From Peribacillus muralis (GTDB lineage: Bacteria; Bacillota; Bacilli; Bacillales; DSM-1321), in NCBI RefSeq assembly GCF_001645685.2, contig NZ_CP017080.1, forward strand, positions 1,788,001 to 1,852,000: a DNA stretch of 64,000 nucleotides. Reading direction: 5' to 3'. The number at the start of each line of letters is the position of its first letter. Within the stretch, counting starts at the first letter, position 1. Below the pieces are notes generated by a model that saw only the letters and a program-made list of their open reading frames with translations, was not told where the DNA came from and ran no database searches. Below are positions 8,042-19,399 of the stretch, piece after piece. Both the position numbers and the translations under genes were made by a program.

Positions 8042-9934
8042 TTGTCGAACAATTCAAAAGAGAGTAAATTTGTCCCGTACGTTTCTGCATCTAAATCTTT
8101 ACCGGAGTTGACTGTAACGGCAATAATCCTAGGGATTATTCTTGCAATCGTCTTCGGGGCAGCGAATGCGTACTTAGGACTGCTAATTGGTTTAACTGTC
8201 TCTGCTTCAATACCCGCGGCGGTAATCTCAATGGCTATTTTAAGAGGTGTTTTTCGCAGGGATTCCATATTAGAGAACAATATAGTGCAAACGATGACCA
8301 CGGCTGGTGAGGCAATTGGTGCCGGTGCAGTATTTACCATACCGGCATTATTCATGTGGGATATGGACGTGAGTCAAGCATTCATCATTTTCGTTGTTTT
8401 AACCGGGGGATTCTTGGGGGTCTTCATGATGGTGCCCCTTCGTCAGCTCCTTATTGTAAGGGAACATGAAACATTACCTTATCCTGAAGGTACGGCATGT
8501 GCCGAAGTACTGAAATCGGGAGAAAAAGGCGGGACCAGCGCCAAGCTGATCGGCGCCGGTTTAATCATCGGCGGTGTGGTGAAAGGGCTTGGTGATGGAT
8601 TTAAGCTTTTTAAAACGGAAGTTGAAACAGGAATCACAAATTTTAAAAATGCAGTCGTTGGTCTGGATGCCTTTCCTTCCCTTTTGGGTGTCGGGTATAT
8701 CATTGGACCGCGTGTCGCAGGTCAAATGCTAGGTGGAGGACTGTTGGCCTGGGTCGTTCTTATTCCGGCAATCAGCTTTTTTGGCAGCAGTAATGGAACA
8801 GCCATTTTCCCTTCCGAGGTACCGATTGGTGAATTGGATGCATGGGGAATTTGGGATAATTATATTCGTTATATAGGAGCTGGTGCGGTTGCAACTGGCG
8901 GATTGATTACATTGATCAAAACCTTACCGATCCTTTTCAGTTCGGTGATTGATACCTTAAAAGGTGTTAAAGCCAATAAAGGACAGCTTAAGGCTGGTTC
9001 AATCCGAACCGAAAAAGACATTCCGGCTAAATACGTTTGGTTGGGTATAATCATCGTCATTATAATCATTGCATTCGCACCTATTACGGATGTCGGAATC
9101 ATTGGAGCGGTTGCCATTGCCATTTTTGGATTCTTATTCGTGACCGTGGCTTCAAGGGTTGTCGGGATCGTCGGAAGTTCTTCTTCCCCTGTTTCTGGAA
9201 TGACGATCGCTACACTATTGATTGTAGCGATTGTCTATAAAGCTACTGGTTTTACTGGTACCCAAGGAATGGTTGCCGCTTTAACTGTCGCTGCAATCAT
9301 CTGTACCGCTCTTGCTGTTTCAGGTGATGTATCGCAAGATTTAAAAACAGGTTACATCGTGGGCGGAACTCCTTGGAAGCAACAAGTTGCGATGATGATC
9401 GGTGTTGTGGCGTCCGCTTCAGTCATCGGTTTTATCTTGGTGCTGATGGATAACGCCTATACGATGGGATCTGCAGAACTGCCTGCACCTAAAGCGGCTC
9501 TAATGAAAATTCTTGCTGAAGGAGTTCTTGGTGGAGACTTACCTTGGACGCTTATCTTTATCGGTGCAGCGATTGCCATCACATTGGAGTTTTTCGGTTT
9601 GAATTCATTAGTAGTGGCCGTAGGCATCTACTTGCCGGTTCATACTAGTGCGCCAATCATGATTGGTGGATTTATACGCTTCTTCATTGAATTCTTCTCG
9701 AAAACGAAAGAAGCACTTAAAGCACGCGTCGATAGAGGTGTATTGTTTGCATCTGGCTTGATAGCAGGTGAGTCATTGATAGGTGTGCTTATTGCCATCC
9801 TGATCGCTGCCGGTGTCCAAGTTCCGGCTGCAGCTAAATTGGCCAGCAATCTGCTGCCATTCCTACTATTCCTTGCTTTAGCTGGCTTGCTTTGGTACGT
9901 TTCCAGCAAAGGGAAAAAAGAAGATGCTTCGTAA
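8042..9934 (+). CDS. OPT-family oligopeptide transporter
   Basis: This polytopic membrane protein of about 630 residues, with some 14-16 hydrophobic helices, belongs to the OPT superfamily of proton-coupled oligopeptide or metal-chelate importers. The N-terminal SLPELTVTAIILGIILAIVF, the NAYLGLLIGLTVSASIPAAV helix and the EGTACAEVLKSGE loop are typical of the prokaryotic group. TTG at 8042 is favoured because AGGAAGTGG lies 5-9 nt upstream; GTG 8033 lies within that ribosome site. Its last codons overlap the next gene. Substrate is unknown. Confidence 0.9.
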   Translation: MSNNSKESKFVPYVSASKSLPELTVTAIILGIILAIVFGAANAYLGLLIGLTVSASIPAAVISMAILRGVFRRDSILENNIVQTMTTAGEAIGAGAVFTIPALFMWDMDVSQAFIIFVVLTGGFLGVFMMVPLRQLLIVREHETLPYPEGTACAEVLKSGEKGGTSAKLIGAGLIIGGVVKGLGDGFKLFKTEVETGITNFKNAVVGLDAFPSLLGVGYIIGPRVAGQMLGGGLLAWVVLIPAISFFGSSNGTAIFPSEVPIGELDAWGIWDNYIRYIGAGAVATGGLITLIKTLPILFSSVIDTLKGVKANKGQLKAGSIRTEKDIPAKYVWLGIIIVIIIIAFAPITDVGIIGAVAIAIFGFLFVTVASRVVGIVGSSSSPVSGMTIATLLIVAIVYKATGFTGTQGMVAALTVAAIICTALAVSGDVSQDLKTGYIVGGTPWKQQVAMMIGVVASASVIGFILVLMDNAYTMGSAELPAPKAALMKILAEGVLGGDLPWTLIFIGAAIAITLEFFGLNSLVVAVGIYLPVHTSAPIMIGGFIRFFIEFFSKTKEALKARVDRGVLFASGLIAGESLIGVLIAILIAAGVQVPAAAKLASNLLPFLLFLALAGLLWYVSSKGKKEDAS

Positions 9935-10292
9935 ACGCCAAAGAGAAAAGAGGAACCTGTTAACCATGGTTCCTCTTTTGGAAGGACGGGTCACCTTGGA
10001 GCAAGGATCTTCGGAAGCGACTTTTTTAGTCATCCAAAGAACCAACTTTGTGGAACGAATGACAATTCGTTTTTTAAAACAGCCTTCAGTTCGTAAAATC
10101 AAGCTCGATAAGTTTGGCGCATTTGCCGTTAATCAAATGGAGTATAAATGCAATGTCAATCAGATTTCTGAAGCGATGAGTGAACATTTCGGTGAGGAAG
10201 CGGAACCATCTTTGCCACGGTTGGTGAAATTCCTGGAAATCCTTGAGGTCCATGAATGGATTGTCTGGGATGAGGAAGAAGATAAAAGCTAA
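9924..10292 (+). CDS. PqqD-like protein
   Basis: The 122-residue protein has the layout of PqqD/RiPP-recognition-element winged helices. The features are VRKIKLDKFGAFAVNQMEY, then a helical part and an acidic C-terminus (WDEEEDKS). PqqD-like proteins usually deliver precursor peptides to radical SAM enzymes; none is visible here. Its ATG lies inside the end of the OPT gene (11-bp overlap), so the two are translationally coupled. A role together with peptide transport is suggested by this arrangement but is inference. Confidence 0.7.
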   Translation: MLRKRQREKRNLLTMVPLLEGRVTLEQGSSEATFLVIQRTNFVERMTIRFLKQPSVRKIKLDKFGAFAVNQMEYKCNVNQISEAMSEHFGEEAEPSLPRLVKFLEILEVHEWIVWDEEEDKS

Positions 10293-10312
10293 AGATTTTT
10301 TTGTTTGATATG

Positions 10313-10388
10313 ATCTCCTTAAGGTAGACCGTGTAAAAAGGCCACAATCATTCGTGGATGCTACATACCTGCTTTAAGGGGATTTTTT
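10313..10388 (+). terminator. Structured terminator of the OPT-PqqD operon
   Basis: ATCTCCTTAA (10313-10322) pairs with TTAAGGGGAT (10374-10383, one G-T wobble), followed by a T-run. Inside are GGTAG/CTAC pairing and an inner CCAC/GTGG hairpin. The large folded interior is unusual for a plain terminator. Confidence 0.6.
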
Positions 10389-10739
10389 ATTATGTCTAAA
10401 AATCGGTGATGATTCCCATTATGACTGAAAGCCTTATACTGTGTATGACTGACATGCTTTGCACTGACAGGATATCAACAATCCTTCGCGGACAGTGAAT
10501 CTCCTTTCCCGCAATATTTAGTTTAGATGAATACTTCACATTCTGAAAGTAATGAATGACTATAAGTAACCTCTTCATAATCGTTAATTGAATTCAACAC
10601 TTTTTCGCTTTCATGCTAGAAACCGCAATCAAGGGGACGCTATGCAAGCTGTATTTTCTCCTGAAGCAATAGCAAGAGTCCATTTAATTAATAAAGTATG
10701 TTGGTGATGGTTCACGTCGCGTTTAATCATATATAGTCT
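10389..10739. other. Intergenic region, no secure gene
   Basis: About 350 bp. The only signal is a possible 21-codon frame at 10642-10707 with AAGGGG five nt upstream of ATG, ahead of the 10741 hairpin. No homology is recognised. Confidence 0.3.
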
Positions 10740-10769
10740 AAGCAGACTCAAATAGATCGAGTCTGCTTT
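10740..10769 (-). terminator. Bidirectional terminator, end of the enhancer-binding protein gene
   Basis: AGCAGACTC (10741-10749) pairs with GAGTCTGCT (10759-10767), with a T-run on the plus strand. It lies 10 bp beyond the stop codon of the minus-strand regulator. Confidence 0.65.
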
Positions 10770-10777
10770 TCCACCTT

Positions 10778-12799
10778 CTAAAGTAAGGATTCTAAGTAGG
10801 ATATTCCGACTTCCGTCATTCTTGTTCCGCCCCGGCCTTTACGTTTTATGATCAGTCCTTTTTGCTCAAGGTCTTCAAGTCTTCTTCTCACCTGCTGTGG
10901 GGACAAGAAGAGGCTTGCATGATGTTCTTTCGTTTTTGCTGAAATATATTCCCTGCTGGCTGCTTTTCCCGTTTCATTGCATTGCATAACGATCTCTAGA
11001 ATCATTCGATGTTCGGATTGCTGCAGGGGATTTTGTGGCGGGGATTCTATATCTGCCGCTTGTTGAGCTTTCTGATACTGCGGCAAATCATCTTTGGTCA
11101 ATACCGTTCCATTACACACTGTCAGCATATAATCCAGTGTGTTTTTAAGCTCGCGAATATTGCCGTCCCACTCAGCTCGGATTAACCTATCCATCAGTGA
11201 TTGCTCCACTTTTATCCATTTTCCGTTCTTTGTTATGTAATGATGGATCAAAAGGGGAATGTCTTCTCTTCTCTGCCTAAGTGGTGGAATGAAGAGGTGA
11301 AGCACATTTAAACGGTAAAATAAATCGTTTCTGAACGTTTGTGCTTTCATTTGTTCCTCGATTTTTTTATTCGTTGCAGTAATGATGCGAATGTTAATTG
11401 GGATTATCTTCGAGCCGCCGATTCGTCTGATTTCCTTTTCCTGGATAACCCTTAATAATCGGGATTGCATCGATAAACTGATATCTCCTATTTCATCCAG
11501 GAAGATGGTGCCGTTATCGGCAAGCTCAAACAGCCCTTTTTTACCTCCGCGCTGACCTCCAGTAAATGATCCATCCTCATACCCGAATAATTCGCTCTCA
11601 AGCAGGCTTTCAGATAAGGCGCTGCAGTTTACGGGCAGAAAAGGTCCGTTTTTTCTATAGGAGTGCTTGTGAATGGCATGAGCAAACAATTCTTTGCCCG
11701 TTCCTGACTCACCTTGAATGAGGATGGGGTGTTCTGCTAATGCAAGCTTTTTTGCGATCTGTTTAAGTTCAATCATTTTAGGATTTTCACAGAAAATGTC
11801 ATCAAAGCTATACTTCGCGTAAAAACCTGTCTCGCGATATTTGCGCTGTGCTGTTTTTTCGATTTCGGATGCCTGATGGACACTTTTAAAAACAGTAACG
11901 ATAGATTGCTCCCCGATCATTGAATGACGGTATACGACGACCTCAACACCATGAATGCTAAAAAATTGACTCTCTTCCACACCATCCCGGATAAAATGAA
12001 CCACTTCGTTTTGAAGGATTACCGTATCGATCGGACGGTTGATGATTACATCCGCCTGAACTTGAAATAGTGCTTCAAGTTTTTGATTAAACACGGTTAC
12101 TTCACTCGTTTCATTGATGACCAGTATTCCGTCATCAATGGTATTAACGACATTTTGGATATGGTGATAGACTTCTTTTGTCTCTTGTTGGGATAAAAGC
12201 AATTTTTGCTGCAATTCAATAATGCTTCTAATGTATCTTTCTGAAATTTGCAGAGCCACATTTCCATCCAGCCTGCAATGATCAACAATTCTTAAAATTG
12301 TGGTCATATCCAAAAGCCTGACACCGATATCCAAAACCATTGGCAAATAGGTGGGGGCAAGTTCTACTTCACCTGGAGATACAGCCACATCAATATCATC
12401 ATAATAAGCATGGTTTTTCTTGTAAGCTACGAAGCGAACATGATTGATGCCAAGTTGGTTAAGAGATTGTATGAGTTCCAATGTGACATTGTATTCATCA
12501 TTAACAACAAGTACGTTAGCTCCAGCTGGAATTGTGAGAAGTTTATCCAAATGTTCATGATGGACGGTGCGTTGTCCCGTTATAAAGGTCACGGCATTCA
12601 TATTCTTTAAATGACCGACTTCTTTTTTAAGAGATTCGGAGGAGAAGAGGATGACATCAGCTTCAAGACCGGCTGGAAGGCCCTCATCCACTGCATAGCT
12701 ATCAATGTCCAGATAATCACCTAAAAGCTGTTGAAGTTGCTGATGCAGTGTGTGCCTTGTCTTCATTCCGCCTGTCAAAAGGATAAGTGAAGGTTTCAT
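10778..12799 (-). CDS. Sigma-54 enhancer-binding transcriptional activator
   Basis: The 673-residue protein has an unassigned sensory N-terminus (about 1-200). A PAS-like domain follows (about 213-310, DDGILVINETSEVTVFNQKLEALF). The sigma-54 AAA+ domain has Walker A GESGTGKE (363-370), loop 1 GSFTGG (410-415) in place of GAFTGA, and Walker B TIFLDE (431-436). The C-terminus is a winged helix (RRRLEDLEQKGLIIKRKGRGG) rather than a Fis-type helix-turn-helix. It is transcribed divergently from an operon with a clear -24/-12 promoter, so it almost certainly activates that operon. The intergenic GGTTC/GAACC repeats are candidate binding sites. The inducer could be a cyanophycin-derived dipeptide or amino acid, but this is inferred. 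Confidence 0.92.
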   Translation of the reverse strand: MKPSLILLTGGMKTRHTLHQQLQQLLGDYLDIDSYAVDEGLPAGLEADVILFSSESLKKEVGHLKNMNAVTFITGQRTVHHEHLDKLLTIPAGANVLVVNDEYNVTLELIQSLNQLGINHVRFVAYKKNHAYYDDIDVAVSPGEVELAPTYLPMVLDIGVRLLDMTTILRIVDHCRLDGNVALQISERYIRSIIELQQKLLLSQQETKEVYHHIQNVVNTIDDGILVINETSEVTVFNQKLEALFQVQADVIINRPIDTVILQNEVVHFIRDGVEESQFFSIHGVEVVVYRHSMIGEQSIVTVFKSVHQASEIEKTAQRKYRETGFYAKYSFDDIFCENPKMIELKQIAKKLALAEHPILIQGESGTGKELFAHAIHKHSYRKNGPFLPVNCSALSESLLESELFGYEDGSFTGGQRGGKKGLFELADNGTIFLDEIGDISLSMQSRLLRVIQEKEIRRIGGSKIIPINIRIITATNKKIEEQMKAQTFRNDLFYRLNVLHLFIPPLRQRREDIPLLIHHYITKNGKWIKVEQSLMDRLIRAEWDGNIRELKNTLDYMLTVCNGTVLTKDDLPQYQKAQQAADIESPPQNPLQQSEHRMILEIVMQCNETGKAASREYISAKTKEHHASLFLSPQQVRRRLEDLEQKGLIIKRKGRGGTRMTEVGISYLESLL

Positions 12800-12823
12800 A
12801 TGGGCCCTTACCTTTCTTTGGTT

Positions 12824-12879
12824 AAATTGGTTCTATTATAGCACAATATTTGAACCAATTTAGACCATTGAACCGTTAA
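12824..12879. promoter_or_regulatory. Candidate upstream activating sites
   Basis: AAATTGGTTC (12824-12833) and GAACCAATTT (12852-12861) are a perfect 10-bp inverted repeat. A related half-site, TTGAACCGTTAA, follows at 12868-12879. TTGGTT also occurs just before the first arm. They lie about 180-230 bp upstream of the -24/-12 promoter and next to the regulator start, where enhancer sites for an activator of this class are expected. Confidence 0.6.
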
Positions 12880-13056
12880 TATCGGCTATACTATCAGCTT
12901 ATAGATTGGTATTTCTAAATTTTCTTATTTCTTACCTTGCTCCAAATGCAGTAATCATGAAAGTATACAAACGAGTATAATTCTGCACCTTTCCATCTCC
13001 ATTACCCATTCCATTTATACGTCATTTAGATCCCCGTCCAGCAGTCGCCTTATTAG

Positions 13057-13073
13057 TTGGCATGTATTTTGCA
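13057..13073 (+). promoter_or_regulatory. Sigma-54 (-24/-12) promoter of the cyanophycin operon
   Basis: TTGGCATGTATTTTGCA has GG and GC separated exactly as in the sigma-54 consensus (TGGCAC-N5-TTGC), with one deviation (T for C after TGGCA). It lies about 100 bp upstream of the transporter gene and is divergent from a sigma-54 activator gene. Confidence 0.85.
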
Positions 13074-13120
13074 TTATTAGTATACAAATGTTTATTTCTC
13101 AAAAAAAGAAAAGGAGAACC

Positions 13121-13150
13121 ATGGAAGAAGAGGGAAGTATCATTTACTAG
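13121..13150 (+). CDS. Possible nine-codon leader peptide
   Basis: AAGGAG is followed at four nt by ATG and a frame encoding MEEEGSIIY and a stop. It lies between the -24/-12 promoter and the transporter gene. It may be a leader ORF or chance. Confidence 0.25.
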   Translation: MEEEGSIIY

Positions 13151-13176
13151 TTGAATGAAAAAAGGGGAGAAGCTTT

Positions 13177-14595
13177 ATGGCTCAAGTCGAAACAACCTAT
13201 CAACCGGAAGGAAATAGGAAAAAAGAGCGTAAAATTAATGTATTCGCATTACTGCTGGGTGTTTTGGTCATCGCAACTTTATTAACGTATGTGTTGCCTG
13301 CAGGGGATTATGGGCGCGTGGAAGTTGACGGAAGGACCGAAATAGACCCAGGTACTTACAAAACTTCCGAACAAACACCGGTTAGCCCATTTGGAGCGGT
13401 TAAAGCACTTCATACTGGTATGGTTGAAGCAGCTAATATTATCTTTTTTGTTTTGATCATTGGGGGGTTCTTTGGTGTATTAACCGCCACTGGGACGATA
13501 AATGTATTGATTACGACGCTTGCAAAAAGACTTGCAACCCGAGAGAAGCTGCTCATTCCGGCCATGATGTTATTTTTCGCAATTGGCGGATCACTTATGG
13601 GGATGGCCGAGGAAACACTCGCTTATATCCCATTATTGATTCCATTGGCGCTTGCACTTGGTTTTGACGTTCTTACAGGGACAGCCATTGTTATTCTTGG
13701 GGCTTCCGCAGGCTTTACGACAGCGGTAATGAATCCGTTTACAGTCGGAATCGCTCAAGGTATCTCCGAATTGCCGATGTTTTCTGGCATGTCGTATCGT
13801 CTAGTACTTTTCGTGATTGTTTATGCAGTATCTGTAACATTCGTCTATCGTCATGCCATGAAAGTGAAAAAGGATCCATCAAGTGGATTTTATGGAAAGT
13901 ACAGCAAAAAAGAAGCTGATGTGCTTCATAATTCAAAAGAGAAGCTTGAAACCAAACATAAGCTCATTCTAGGTGCGTTTTTACTGAATTATGTGGTCCT
14001 TGCTTTTGGAGTGATCAAATACCAATGGTATATTACTGAAATTGCAGCTCTTTTTGTAGTTTTGACAATTGTCATAGGAGTCATTGGCAGATTATCTACG
14101 GATAAGATTGCGAAATCGTTTGTAGACGGATCTTCGTTATTGATTGGTGGAGCCTTAATTATTGGTGTTTCCCGGGCAACTCTTGTTGTATTAAATGAAG
14201 GGCATATTATTGACCCGATGCTTCATGGGGTTTCCGATACGCTAAAGCATATTCCGGCCTTCTGGAGTGTAATCGGGATGTATAACTTCCAAGCTATTAT
14301 CCATTTTATCCTTGCTTCGGGCAGTGGACATGCGATGCTGACGATGCCAATCATGACGCCGCTTGCGGATTTGCTTGATATTACTCGACAGACGGCAGTT
14401 CTTTCGTTTTCATTTGCTGATGGAATCGGGAATATTATTTTTCCGACTGCAGGCACGCTCATGGCAGGCCTCGCAATTGCCGGTATTCCATGGACAAAGT
14501 GGGCCAAATGGGTGCTTCCGCTTGTATTCATTCAATACCTCATTGGTTTAGCCGCCGTTGTCATCGCTCATTTAATGAATTACGGACCATTCTGA
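13177..14595 (+). CDS. YfcC-family carrier (ArcD/DcuC-like)
   Basis: This membrane protein of 472 residues with about 12 hydrophobic helices belongs to the YfcC/C4-dicarboxylate anaerobic carrier group. Typical features are the N-terminal basic tail, the first helix FALLLGVLVIATLLTYVLPAGDY and the central GGSLMGMAEETLAYIPLLIPL. The NFQAIIHFILASGSGHAM segment lies near the end. Members move dicarboxylates, amino acids or dipeptides. As first gene of a sigma-54 operon followed by isoaspartyl dipeptidase and two secreted cyanophycinases, it probably imports beta-Asp-Arg dipeptide or the released arginine/aspartate. That substrate is inferred from context only. The ribosome site AAAGGGGAG is clear. 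Confidence 0.87.
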   Translation: MAQVETTYQPEGNRKKERKINVFALLLGVLVIATLLTYVLPAGDYGRVEVDGRTEIDPGTYKTSEQTPVSPFGAVKALHTGMVEAANIIFFVLIIGGFFGVLTATGTINVLITTLAKRLATREKLLIPAMMLFFAIGGSLMGMAEETLAYIPLLIPLALALGFDVLTGTAIVILGASAGFTTAVMNPFTVGIAQGISELPMFSGMSYRLVLFVIVYAVSVTFVYRHAMKVKKDPSSGFYGKYSKKEADVLHNSKEKLETKHKLILGAFLLNYVVLAFGVIKYQWYITEIAALFVVLTIVIGVIGRLSTDKIAKSFVDGSSLLIGGALIIGVSRATLVVLNEGHIIDPMLHGVSDTLKHIPAFWSVIGMYNFQAIIHFILASGSGHAMLTMPIMTPLADLLDITRQTAVLSFSFADGIGNIIFPTAGTLMAGLAIAGIPWTKWAKWVLPLVFIQYLIGLAAVVIAHLMNYGPF

Positions 14596-14635
14596 TCGTG
14601 TTAAGAAACAGCTTAGAGCAATTGGAGGAAAAAAA

Positions 14636-15811
14636 TTGATAACTTTAATTAAAAATGCAGAAGTGTATGAACCTCAATATCTTGGCCGGATGGATGTGCT
14701 GCTTGCGGGTGGCAAAATAGTCCATATCCAAGATGAAATTGATCTGGATAACGTATCCATTGATGTGAAAATAGTAGATGGATCGGGGAAAATCCTCGTG
14801 CCTGGTTTCATTGATGCCCATGTGCATTTAATCGGTGGCGGCGGCGAAGGTGGCTTTAGGACACGGACTCCGGAATTGAACTTAACGGATGCTACGATGG
14901 CAGGCATTACAACCGTGGTTGGAGTGCTGGGTACGGATGGAACAACAAGACGGATCGAAAGTCTGCTGGCAAAGGCCCATGCATTGGGAGAAGAGGGAAT
15001 TACGGCGTACATTCACTCAGGCTCTTATCAGATTCCGGTGAAAACCTTAACGGGCAAAGTAGAAGAAGATTTGATATTCATTGAGAAAGTAATCGGTGTA
15101 GGCGAAATCGCCATATCCGACCATCGCTCTTCTGAACCGACGCTTAATGAGCTTGTGAAGATAGCGGCTTCAGCTCGTAATGGCAGTTTAATTACGGGAA
15201 AGGCAGGGATATTGGAAATACATGTAGGCGATGGTGATCGCAGGCTCCAGCTCCTTTTTGAGATTCTAGAAAAGACGGATATACCGATTCATCATTTTCA
15301 CCCGACTCACATTAACCGAAATCAAGATTTATTCGCAGAGGGGATCCGTTATGCAGAAAAAGGGGGATATGTAGACTTAACGACAAGCACCACTCCTCAA
15401 TTCCTGGAGGAAGGGGAAGTGAAATGCAGTAGCGGATTGAGACAGATGCTTGAGAGTGGGGTGCCCGTTACTCAGATTACTTTCTCCTCGGATGGACAGG
15501 CAAGTCTTCCTTATTTTAATCAAGACGGTGAGTTCGCAGGTCTGCAAGTTGGCAATGTTTCTTCTCTTTACAACGAGGTCCGTGACTCCGTATTGGATGA
15601 GGGCGTTCCGCTTGAATCAGCACTCCAGGTTATCACATCTAATCCGGCTCGTATATTGAAGCTGAAAAGCAAAGGTAAAATAGGGGTGGAAATGGATGCT
15701 GATCTCGTGATGCTTAATGAAGGAACGTTGACCATCGATACGGTCATCTCAAGAGGAAAAGTGATGGTAGAACAGGGTGTCCCTATTATTAAAGGGACAT
15801 TTGAAAAATAA
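14636..15811 (+). CDS. iadA: Isoaspartyl dipeptidase
   Basis: This 391-residue amidohydrolase of the IadA family cleaves beta-aspartyl dipeptides in the cytoplasm. The metal motif GFIDAHVHLIGGGGEGGF is followed by a central TGKAGILEIHVGDGDRR segment. The later ligands are in HHFHPTHINRN, and the catalytic aspartate lies in TFSSDGQASLP. Length is normal. TTG at 14636 has GGAGG at good distance. In this operon it is well placed to split the beta-Asp-Arg dipeptides made by cyanophycinase, giving aspartate and arginine. Confidence 0.93.
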   Translation: MITLIKNAEVYEPQYLGRMDVLLAGGKIVHIQDEIDLDNVSIDVKIVDGSGKILVPGFIDAHVHLIGGGGEGGFRTRTPELNLTDATMAGITTVVGVLGTDGTTRRIESLLAKAHALGEEGITAYIHSGSYQIPVKTLTGKVEEDLIFIEKVIGVGEIAISDHRSSEPTLNELVKIAASARNGSLITGKAGILEIHVGDGDRRLQLLFEILEKTDIPIHHFHPTHINRNQDLFAEGIRYAEKGGYVDLTTSTTPQFLEEGEVKCSSGLRQMLESGVPVTQITFSSDGQASLPYFNQDGEFAGLQVGNVSSLYNEVRDSVLDEGVPLESALQVITSNPARILKLKSKGKIGVEMDADLVMLNEGTLTIDTVISRGKVMVEQGVPIIKGTFEK

Positions 15812-15834
15812 AAGAATGATAGGGAGCTGAAGGA

Positions 15835-16860
15835 ATGAAACAGTTAATGAAGGTGTGTATGATGTTAGGTTTGTTTGCTTTTTATTGCCAAGGGAATTTT
15901 GCACATGCTGCGAGCGGTGACTATCAGTATAGCAGCTCAGGAAACACGGGAAATGTAACGACTGCCACATCTTATGGCATTAACTTAATGGGAGGAGGCA
16001 CGGACGTCGATGAAGCGATGCTATGGATGGCCAAAAAAGCAAATTCAGGTGACTTTGTCGTCCTCCGGACTTCAGGATCCGACGGATATAACCAGTATCT
16101 TTACGATTTGGCACAGAGTAATAACGCAAAGCTTGATTCAGTCGAAACGATCGTGCTGAACAACAAATATGCTTCAAGTGACTCGTTTGTGTTAGATAAG
16201 GTGCGTAAGGCGGAAGCAGTCTTTTTTGCCGGAGGAGATCAATTCAATTATGTCGATTTCATAAAAAATACGGCACTTGAGGATGTACTTAATCAGCTTA
16301 TTCAAAATAATGTTCCAATAGGTGGAACAAGTGCAGGGCTCGCAATTATGGGGCAATTTGTCTATGATGCAAAAAATGGTTCCGTCTATTCAGATGAAGC
16401 ACTGGCAAATCCAAATAACCGCTATATGACGTTTTCAAGAGATTTCCTGAATAATCGCTATGTATCAAGTGCGATTACAGACACTCATTTCGAACAGAGG
16501 GACAGAATGGGAAGATTCATAGGGTTTATGGCGAGAAATGTATCAGACGGATGGACGAATCAGGCTAAAGGCATTGCTGTTAATGAACAAACAGCTCTGC
16601 TCATCGAACAGGACGGAACGGCTAAGGTTGTTGCCCAGCCAGGTGGCAGCAACCAATCCGTATATATGGCGAAAACAACGGCCGCCCCTACAAGCAGCTC
16701 AGGCAAGCCATTGACTATAAAAGATGTTCAGCTCGTCAAGTTGAAACCCGGAAATACGTTCAATCTTCAGACATGGACGAGCAGTAATGGCTATTCCTAT
16801 AAACTATCTGCCCTGTCTGGTGTCTTAAGTTCAACAAGTGGTTCAATATATGGAAATTAA
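15835..16860 (+). CDS. Secreted cyanophycinase-type S51 peptidase, single domain
   Basis: The 341-residue protein has a signal peptide (about 1-26, ending AHA-A) and one peptidase S51/cyanophycinase domain. The nucleophile is S166 in GGTSAGLAIM; the upstream FFAGGDQF loop and the later DTHFEQRDRMGRF helix are the family landmarks. These enzymes are serine-type exo-hydrolases that release beta-Asp-Arg from cyanophycin. Compared with the next gene, several landmark residues differ (AGGDQ for VGGDQ, DTHFEQ for DQHFDE). Specificity may therefore differ. The next gene begins 16 bp after its stop. Confidence 0.85.
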   Translation: MKQLMKVCMMLGLFAFYCQGNFAHAASGDYQYSSSGNTGNVTTATSYGINLMGGGTDVDEAMLWMAKKANSGDFVVLRTSGSDGYNQYLYDLAQSNNAKLDSVETIVLNNKYASSDSFVLDKVRKAEAVFFAGGDQFNYVDFIKNTALEDVLNQLIQNNVPIGGTSAGLAIMGQFVYDAKNGSVYSDEALANPNNRYMTFSRDFLNNRYVSSAITDTHFEQRDRMGRFIGFMARNVSDGWTNQAKGIAVNEQTALLIEQDGTAKVVAQPGGSNQSVYMAKTTAAPTSSSGKPLTIKDVQLVKLKPGNTFNLQTWTSSNGYSYKLSALSGVLSSTSGSIYGN

Positions 16861-16876
16861 AATAGGAGGAGTAAAA

Positions 16877-19399
16877 GTGAAGAAGATCATTAATATGGCA
16901 TTTATGGCCTTATTGCTTGCATCGGCCTGCTTTTTGCCTCCAGGAAAGGTCAGCGCTCACCATGATGACGAATTTAGAGGAAGTCTCGTTATTGCAGGAG
17001 GCTCATTAGGCAGCAGCAACAAGGATATCTATGAATCTTTTATTAAACTCGCCGGCGGAGCCGAAAAAGCGAAAATCGGCATTATTCCCGCTGCGAGCGG
17101 AAGTCTGAAATCCTCCAAGGAGTTTAGAGCAGATCTTGTGAAATATGGGGTGAACGAGAAGGAAATCGTGATTCTTCCGCTATCGGACCATGATTTCAGT
17201 GATACTGATTTTGATGAGAAATCGTGGAAGAACAATGTCCACAGTAAAGCGGTTGTAAGTCAGATCGAGGATCTTTCGGGTATCTGGTTTGTTGGAGGCG
17301 ACCAACTTCGAATAACAAATACATTATATGATGCCAAGGGAAAGAGTACGTTGGCGCTTGATGCGATTTGGAACGTGTATAAAAAAGGAGCTGTCGTGGG
17401 CGGAACAAGTGCAGGCGCGGCAATTATGAGTGATGTCATGATTACCGGCGGTGATAGCTTAGGAGGGCTAAAAGGTAAATTCACCGGAAATTCCGAGTCT
17501 CCAAAAAACAAAGAGTATGAGCCCGTCCGTATTGACCGGGGGCTCGGGTTCTTTAAATATGGGATCATCGACCAGCATTTCGATGAAAGAGGGAGACTCG
17601 GGCGTTTGGTAGCAACGGCCATTAAATACGAAAAGCAAAAAAAGAAATATAATTCTTATGGAATTGATGAAGATACAGCGTTGATTGTCAACAATCAAGA
17701 AAAAACAGCTGAAATTGCAGGCAGGGGCGGAGTGACGGTTGTTGATTTAAGTAAAGCAAAAGAACACAAGGGGAAGATCAGTAATGTCTCCATCAGCCTC
17801 TTATCTCCTGGCGATAAGATGGATTTGACTGCTAAATCATTTACGATCCATTCAAATAAGAGTGCCACTAAAGGAAATGAGTACTATCAATTTAAACCTT
17901 TGGAAGCAACGGGTGTCCTGACTTCATATGGAAAACTCAAATCATATTTGTCATATTCGCTTGTTGATAATGCTTCAACTGAATCGGTAAAAAGCTATTT
18001 ATATGATAGCAAGGGATCAGGCTATGCCTTAACCTTTAGTAAAACGGGAAACACAAATGGGTATTGGGGCTATCAAGATGGACAGAAAGATGATTATTCC
18101 ATCACGAATGTGAAAATGGATGTTGCCCCTGCTTCTCTCCAATTTAAAAGAGACAAGCATGCTTTTAAAGACTATCAAGAAGCCAATTTTGAACTTCCTG
18201 AAAAAAAGGAGCGCGGTCGCATAGAAGGAAATTTGGTCATTGCAGGTGGAGCACTTGGTTCAAGCAACGAAGATGTGTACAAAAAGTTTATTGAGTTGGC
18301 CAAGGAAGGTTCTGATGCCAAAGTAGGCATCATTTCGGCTGCAAGCGGAAGCCTGAGCTCCTCATACGCCTTCAAAAACGATCTATTGAGGTATGGCTTG
18401 AAAGATGAAAATATCAAGATCCTACCGATTTCAACTCATGACTTTAAAGGAACTTCCGTGGATGAATCAAGTTGGAAGGAAAACAGAAATAGTGATCCTG
18501 TCGCTGCCGAAATAAAAAACCTTGATGCCATTTGGTTTGTGGGCGGAGATCAGACGTATATTACAGAAGCATTATTCAATCCAGATCAAACGGAATCAAA
18601 AGCATTAAAGGCGATTTGGGATATGTATAAAAATGGTGGTGTGTTAGGCGGAACAAGTGCAGGAGCAGCGATCATGAGCGATGTCATGCTTGCCGGCGGC
18701 GGCAGCTTGGAGACACTAACAAAAGGATTTACGAACACGTATAACGGAATGGAACAGCAAGAAGGTGGGCCGGGTTATTTGGAACGTGGGCTTGGCTTTT
18801 TCCAGTATGGGATAATTGACCAGCATTTCGATAATAAAGCAAGGCTCGGCAGACTTATAGCAACTGCACATGAAAAAGGCAATCATGGTCAGCTGTCATA
18901 TGGAATTGATGAAGACACAGCAATGGTTGTCAATAATCTCAAGCAGAAGATCGAAGTAGTCGGGCGCGGAGGAGTAACCGTTATTGATTTATCCAAAGTT
19001 AGCACCAATCCTAAGATAAAAAGCGAATATAAAAATATTTTACTATCTACAATCGCACCAGGGGATAGTGTTGATTTCAAAACGAAAGAGATTCAAATAG
19101 ATGAACATAAAACCCGTACAAAAGGAAATGAGTATAGTGATTTTGACGCCGCTCCTCATTCTGGTGTATTAACGGCTCATGGCACATTAAGTAAATTCCT
19201 TTCTTATCAACTTGTTGATAACAGCAGAGAGAAAGAAGTGAAAGCCTATTCTTTTGATAAAGGAAAAGGAGTGGAGCTTACATTCAGAAAGACAAAAGAA
19301 ACGGATGGATTTTGGGGGTACAAAGACGGCAGCAAAGATGATTATTCAGTCGTTAATGTTGTTGTGGATATCACACCCATTACAGTAAAGAATGAATAA
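16877..19399 (+). CDS. Secreted tandem-domain cyanophycinase
   Basis: This 840-residue exported protein has a signal peptide (about 1-27, GKVSA-HH). Two homologous units of about 400 residues follow, spanning roughly 34-430 and 448-835. Each has GGSLGSSN or GGALGSSN at its start, an IWFVGGDQ loop, a nucleophile in GGTSAGAAIMSDVM (S178 and S594) and IIDQHFD...RLGRL. Each also carries a C-terminal beta-rich extension ending in WGYxDGxKDDYS. Both active sites look intact. The usual enzyme has one domain, so this is an internal duplication. GTG 16877 with GGAGGA is preferred to an earlier ATG inside the preceding gene. No cell-wall anchor is visible, so it is probably released. It is the last gene of the sigma-54 operon. 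Confidence 0.9.
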   Translation: MKKIINMAFMALLLASACFLPPGKVSAHHDDEFRGSLVIAGGSLGSSNKDIYESFIKLAGGAEKAKIGIIPAASGSLKSSKEFRADLVKYGVNEKEIVILPLSDHDFSDTDFDEKSWKNNVHSKAVVSQIEDLSGIWFVGGDQLRITNTLYDAKGKSTLALDAIWNVYKKGAVVGGTSAGAAIMSDVMITGGDSLGGLKGKFTGNSESPKNKEYEPVRIDRGLGFFKYGIIDQHFDERGRLGRLVATAIKYEKQKKKYNSYGIDEDTALIVNNQEKTAEIAGRGGVTVVDLSKAKEHKGKISNVSISLLSPGDKMDLTAKSFTIHSNKSATKGNEYYQFKPLEATGVLTSYGKLKSYLSYSLVDNASTESVKSYLYDSKGSGYALTFSKTGNTNGYWGYQDGQKDDYSITNVKMDVAPASLQFKRDKHAFKDYQEANFELPEKKERGRIEGNLVIAGGALGSSNEDVYKKFIELAKEGSDAKVGIISAASGSLSSSYAFKNDLLRYGLKDENIKILPISTHDFKGTSVDESSWKENRNSDPVAAEIKNLDAIWFVGGDQTYITEALFNPDQTESKALKAIWDMYKNGGVLGGTSAGAAIMSDVMLAGGGSLETLTKGFTNTYNGMEQQEGGPGYLERGLGFFQYGIIDQHFDNKARLGRLIATAHEKGNHGQLSYGIDEDTAMVVNNLKQKIEVVGRGGVTVIDLSKVSTNPKIKSEYKNILLSTIAPGDSVDFKTKEIQIDEHKTRTKGNEYSDFDAAPHSGVLTAHGTLSKFLSYQLVDNSREKEVKAYSFDKGKGVELTFRKTKETDGFWGYKDGSKDDYSVVNVVVDITPITVKNE

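Follow-up and report, generated by a model that had tools for sequence, protein, structure and literature searches.

Genes and promoter at the locus

The window is a stretch of 64,000 nucleotides from Peribacillus muralis (assembly GCF_001645685.2, contig NZ_CP017080.1, positions 1,788,001–1,852,000), the genome of which comprises 5.0 Mb in two contigs. It includes a gene for a sigma-54-dependent activator (10778–12799, minus strand), with matches to AAA+, PAS fold and HTH_12 families, that is divergent from an operon of four genes on the plus strand. These encode a DcuC/YfcC-family carrier that we propose to be a β-Asp-Arg importer (13177–14595), the isoaspartyl dipeptidase IadA (14636–15811), a single-domain S51 peptidase with an export-type start and a CphE-like active site in which Thr precedes the His (15835–16860), and a tandem cyanophycinase-like protein with an export-type start and two S51 domains, each with a β-rich extension (16877–19399). 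The operon therefore has three cyanophycinase-like S51 domains in total, the tandem counting as two. The preliminary description had reported this arrangement, a sigma-54 operon facing its activator and containing a carrier, IadA and two S51 proteins with export-type starts, and all of the open reading frames are where it placed them. The closest named loci are those of P. muralis, P. simplex and Peribacillus sp. SI8-4. Flanking OPT, PqqD-like and SDR genes were dropped as members of the system, the first two because they have no match in three of the six other operon loci (L016, L019 and L020).

The carrier matches the DcuC profile PF03606 with 351 bits and the YfcC basic amino acid antiporter profile (NF008611) with 332.3 bits, the latter under a cut-off of 500 bits. 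IadA exceeds the TIGR01975 cut-off (556.4 bits as compared with 331.25), has relatives of solved structure and lacks an export-type start. The genome encodes a second IadA (L150); no activator or carrier match was found in the 16 kb searched around it, and the only sigma-54 site there has one mismatch and lies inside a gene approximately 4.7 kb downstream.

A −24/−12 promoter element, TTGGCATGTATTTTGCA, is located at 13057–13073 on the plus strand, and nothing else in the window matches TTGGCAYN5TTGCW exactly. When one mismatch is allowed the window contains four matches as compared with 1.76 expected, a number that is reached in 12 of 100 shuffled sequences, so that one weak match alone would mean little. 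Genome-wide, there are 19 exact sites as compared with three for a reversed control pattern. The intergenic regions of the seven compared loci in which activator and carrier are paired (the window, L016, L017, L018, L048, L019 and L020) were aligned. Every one of them has −24 and −12 boxes that conform to the consensus, even though the sequence around the boxes differs extensively, indicating that the site at 13057 is more than a chance match. The claim of a well-formed sigma-54 promoter is thus borne out. The genome encodes two proteins whose sigma-54 DNA-binding domain scores above the Pfam cut-off (L151 and L152, at G000:C1:4549609 and 529267).

An inverted repeat, TAAATTGGTTCTATTAT / ATATTTGAACCAATTTA, at 12823–12862 is a candidate upstream activating sequence. 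It adjoins the start of the activator gene, ends approximately 195 bp before the −24 element and is largely conserved in the seven loci. In a pattern search of the 260 bp around each of the 19 exact genomic sites, the full dyad was found at the window locus only, with one weak partial match elsewhere.

The activator and the putatively exported S51 enzymes

The activator has a sigma-54 AAA+ domain (Sigma54_activat, 221 bits) and a PAS fold, preceded by an unannotated N-terminal domain of about residues 1–190. Sigma-54 activators usually end in a Fis-type HTH, and their GAFTGA loop contacts sigma-54. The C terminus of this protein is instead an HTH_12 winged helix (23.4 bits, cut-off 21.4), and the families listed up to an E value of 10 include no Fis-type HTH. 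The contact loop has the sequence GSFTGG here and in all four other Peribacillus loci that were read, and GTFTGA in L019 and L020. The best NCBIfam match, to a PrdR-type regulator, covers residues 193–602 only and, at 369 bits, is far below the cut-off of 795. A search with residues 1–330 returned 56 protein clusters; the structural-alignment matches listed were those of the AAA+ domain and say little about the fold of the putative N-terminal sensor.

The single-domain enzyme scores 44 bits against Pfam S51 (cut-off 23.9) and 84.2 bits against TIGR02069, under the 126.6-bit cut-off, and is retained here only as a predicted S51 peptidase with CphE-like residues. The tandem protein exceeds the same TIGR02069 cut-off with 326 bits, and both of its halves are complete S51 domains. 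Translation probably begins at the GTG at 16877, which lies behind a GGAGG, rather than at 16838, and this is consistent with the 840-residue record P0121 that matched the tandem in a protein search. Inspection and a simple hydropathy score identified an n-region and a hydrophobic core at the start of both proteins, suggesting that they are secreted. The catalytic Ser-His-Glu is present in all three S51 domains. Comparison with the substrate and binding residues listed in the accessible text of PMC3235067 for CphEal, the CphE of Pseudomonas alcaligenes, shows that the single-domain protein and domain 1 of the tandem have equivalents of CphB Gln101, Asp172, Arg178, Arg180 and Arg183, whereas domain 2 has Lys at the position of the binding residue Arg178 and keeps the others. 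The single-domain protein resembles CphEal in its signal-peptide-like start, GxSxG, His and Glu, and in having Thr in place of CphB Gln173; the tandem protein differs from CphE in its two-domain organization, its CphB-like DQH and the Lys in domain 2.

These motifs extend to homologues of the tandem. Two copies each of GTSAG and GGDQ are found in 88 of the 98 full-length homologues returned; the exact motif D[QTS]HF occurs fewer than two times in 42 of the 98, some of which read DQHM. A structure model of the tandem (pLDDT 90.6, pTM 0.88) matched cyanophycinases, among them 7uqw and 3en0. The best match was 7uqv, which bears the title "pseudo-CphB" (TMt 0.89), with Synechocystis CphB (0.83) next. 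In the alignment with 7uqv the active-site motifs are kept despite the title of that entry, and conservation of residues is for this reason no proof of a cyanophycin substrate.

Conservation and sigma-54 sites across the order

The tandem protein was used as a query against 397 genomes of the order and, at the level of the family, against 43, of which 36 are from the genus. It was found in five of the 36 genus genomes. The operon is not a Peribacillus peculiarity, as an exported enzyme, tandem or single, is encoded at an E value of 1e-30 or better in 49 of the 397 order genomes, comprising 39 with a tandem (one, G373, interrupted) and 10 with a single-domain protein. These 49, together with four Peribacillus genomes picked because they have the enzyme, make up the set of 53 described below. 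Activator homologues are present at 1e-140 in 97 of the 397 genomes, which include all 49 with an exported enzyme and 48 of the 348 others. The match in one of the 49, G203, is truncated and is missed at 1e-150. Fisher p values for this co-occurrence, 8e-36 by genome and 1e-10 by genus, overstate the case because related genomes are not independent. The preliminary description had called for a survey of the synteny of six genes; the number is corrected to five. The association as such is maintained throughout the order.

Twenty-seven of the 53 genomes have the exported-enzyme gene linked to those for the activator and IadA, with several different gene orders among them, and in 24 the activator-iadA pair is present with the enzyme gene elsewhere. 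In G203 the truncated activator match adjoins the enzyme, and in G046 no IadA match was obtained at the cut-off used. Two loci outside the 53, L021 (Bacillus sp. SJS) and L022 (Neobacillus sp. DY30), have an exported enzyme without an activator-carrier pair within the 10 kb examined; in L021 an exact sigma-54 site precedes a pair of single-domain and tandem genes, and in L022 the tandem gene is preceded by a site with one mismatch. Peribacillus frigoritolerans F-D2 (L020) and Metabacillus idriensis (L019) were considered as partners in a transfer, an idea that was rejected since both fall in the same genus in the genome set. The L020 record, which appears within the genus of M. idriensis, is probably mislabelled.

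Fifty-one of the 53 genomes, as judged from the stretches examined, have a carrier gene of the family adjacent to the activator or to iadA, the exceptions being G046 and G373. In all 51 the carrier is preceded by a sigma-54 site that has no more than one mismatch, and in 46 this site is exact. These 46 include all seven loci of one genus. Between the activator and iadA of G373 there is a site with one mismatch. The exported-enzyme gene is itself behind a sigma-54 site in 50 of the 53 genomes. Thirty-five have a site of their own, exact in 21: 14 of these genes are linked and 21 belong to the 24 that are unlinked, 20 of the latter with exact sites. A further 14 enzyme genes follow iadA within the carrier operon and have no site of their own, and that of G046 is in an ABC transporter operon behind an exact site. 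The unlinked genes that lack their own site are those of G107 and G168, which are intact, and the interrupted gene of G373. As a control, the 600 bp preceding the match were scanned in 16 Peribacillus homologues, which are single-domain, CphB-sized open frames from one genus, and no site was found in any of them; only that of the window genome was checked as being beside cphA1.

TTGG and CCAA half-sites precede carrier and enzyme promoters alike at roughly similar distances. TGG occurs at −84 to −76 in 26 of the 35 enzyme promoters (mean 3.05 and largest value 14 in other windows of position) and CCA at −62 to −44 in 30 of the 35 (mean 2.96 in other windows). This positional test is descriptive because it was framed after the sequences had been viewed, the genomes are related and the carrier histogram behind it covers 42 of the 51 promoters, nine with longer intergenic regions being omitted. 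A matrix derived de novo from 50 of the 51 carrier promoters (L143 omitted) reached p<0.05 in only 18 of the 35 enzyme promoters.

Could the promoter and gene order be a coincidence of neighbouring genes? The number of one-mismatch sites expected in a window of this size allows for a stray match, but a consensus site in seven of seven loci, separate promoters on unlinked genes and the co-occurrence of activator and enzyme in 49 of 49 genomes make such an explanation vanishingly improbable. By sequence, the gene set and its regulon are real and conserved.

Some parts of the module appear to be exchangeable. A carrier of the window type (at least 75% identity) is present in 21 genomes and is linked to the tandem in 19 of them. 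A distant type (31–33%) is present in 30 genomes; it is linked to a single-domain enzyme in nine and to the tandem in none of the other 21, all of which have a tandem. This distribution fits a substrate-matched carrier. In G046 (L112:3018-11701) the genes opposite the activator, which are preceded by an exact sigma-54 site, encode a solute-binding protein of family 5, two permeases, two oligopeptide ATPases, a protein of the asparaginase-II family (PF06089) and a single-domain exported-type enzyme. The simplest reading is that the peptide ABC importer and asparaginase-II replace the carrier and IadA and would have a like function; a search of 10 further genomes with PF06089 gave no match. Three megaterium-like loci, L108, L109 and L110, from the genomes G228, G374 and G275, unite in one cluster the genes for the activator, the carrier, IadA, the tandem and a single-domain relative. 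The single-domain gene of L108 has its own one-mismatch site, and the tandem and single-domain proteins of the three loci are 92.6–99.7% identical to Priestia megaterium records. A purified extracellular cyanophycinase from Bacillus megaterium BAC19 is cited in the accessible text of PMC3235067.

Genes for arginine catabolism are found nearby in two loci. In L019, beyond the operon and past one unmatched gene, there is a second sigma-54 activator followed by catabolic genes (L019:14282-19970). The glutamate-semialdehyde dehydrogenase and ornithine transaminase are both over their cut-offs and a glutamate-dehydrogenase-like protein is below its cut-offs; an exact sigma-54 site precedes these genes. 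L020 likewise has, a few genes further on, putative genes for such an activator, the dehydrogenase and the transaminase, together with the site.

The 48 order genomes that have the activator but no exported enzyme indicate that the core module has another use. They leave room for a general role in the use of isoaspartyl peptides, in which the S51 enzymes would act on damaged proteins or other β-linked peptides and cyanophycin would be incidental. The separation of the activator-iadA pair from the enzyme gene in 24 genomes, the "pseudo-CphB" title of the closest structure and the promiscuity described, in the accessible text of PMC10206079, for an IadA from a cyanophycin cluster are in keeping with such a role. 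We nevertheless regard it as a rather improbable account of the locus, as the substrate residues of cyanophycinases are conserved in the exported enzymes, the window-type and distant carriers differ sharply in their linkage to the tandem, and arginine catabolic genes are near the operon in L019 and L020.

A proposed pathway for external cyanophycin

The locus is probably an inducible pathway for the use of external cyanophycin. In the mechanism that we infer, the exported CphE-type enzymes would cut the polymer outside the cell to give β-Asp-Arg, the DcuC-family carrier would import this dipeptide, and IadA would split it into Asp and Arg, which would be followed by arginine catabolism. The divergent activator would bind the TTGG/CCAA dyad and drive sigma-54 RNA polymerase at the −24/−12 promoter, with an imported β-aspartyl dipeptide as the probable inducer. 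The pathway for an external polymer envisaged in the preliminary description is coherent with the gene content, which combines predicted sigma-54 control and an operon with enzymes that have export-type starts and an IadA that has none.

The source of the polymer is a separate question. The preliminary description saw no cphA in view and concluded that cyanophycin is scavenged, a step that does not hold for this strain. The same genome, approximately 400 kb from the locus, has a full cphA1 (1148 bits, cut-off 850) that adjoins a gene for a 271-residue intracellular-type cyanophycinase without a hydrophobic start (G000:C1:1395675-1399063). That description had also counted a cphA in the genome, with intracellular localization, against its own proposal; cphA1 is present and its neighbour is intracellular in type as predicted from its sequence, which comes close to that case. 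No sigma-54 site with at most one mismatch was found in the 19-kb region L043 that includes the cphB-cphA1 pair (at 8660–12093), so that the pair and the operon are not co-regulated through this promoter type. Among the 53 enzyme-bearing genomes, cphA1 is over the cut-off in 13 and is lacking in 40, and foreign polymer is therefore the likely food in most carriers of the system. Scavenging is likeliest for the system overall, and the window strain could use its own or foreign polymer. Recycling, in which the strain makes cyanophycin and the exported enzymes recover it from lysed mother cells or siblings, is suggested by the cphA1 and adjacent cyanophycinase of this genome, by the 13 carriers with cphA1 and by a proposed role of cyanophycin in the spore matrix of Clostridium perfringens cited in PMC5532821. 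With 40 carriers lacking cphA1 and no sigma-54 site in L043, we consider it unlikely, although less so than a general role in isoaspartyl peptide use.

Control of amino acid use by a sigma-54 activator is exemplified by the RocR/SigL arginine regulon of Bacillus subtilis. The system described here is similar in this respect and in the arginine genes behind sigma-54 sites near the operon in L019 and L020; it differs in the substrate step and in having HTH_12 in place of the Fis-type DNA-binding domain. Another counterpart is the "cyanophycin utilization locus" of cyanophycinases, iadA and a transporter, which the accessible text of PMC10206079 attributes to Ben Hania et al. According to the same text, clusters of cyanophycinase and isoaspartyl dipeptidase are usually in genomes without cphA1, and the isoaspartyl dipeptidase of Firmicutes is undiscovered. 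Cyanophycinase genes, iadA and a transporter are likewise clustered at the window locus, in a genome that departs from the usual setting in having cphA1. The present system also features a sigma-54 activator, a candidate dyad, promoters that are located before unlinked cyanophycinase-like genes as well, and the tandem organization of one exported enzyme.

The preliminary description knew of no account of this arrangement. Cyanophycin utilization loci have in fact been published; a sigma-54 regulon of cyanophycin or isoaspartyl dipeptidase genes was not found in the open-licence papers searched and is new within them, which is no proof of novelty. Among these papers, cyanophycin occurred together with sigma-54 in one flavobacterial transcriptome and cyanophycinase together with RpoN in one Legionella genome, and SigL with isoaspartyl dipeptidase in none.

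More tentatively, we suggest a Bacillales sigma-54 regulon in which a new family of N-terminal sensors may respond to β-aspartyl dipeptides, bind the TTGG/CCAA dyad and govern exported cyanophycinases wherever these are sited, with transporter and dipeptidase being exchangeable and asparaginase-II (PF06089) as a candidate for the Firmicutes isoaspartyl dipeptidase. If these proposals are correct, extracellular cyanophycin breakdown in bacilli would be tied to a single genetic switch, and the regulon would offer a candidate β-Asp-Arg transporter and a candidate for the missing dipeptidase. It would also indicate how widely cyanophycin feeding has spread among bacteria that are unable to make the polymer.
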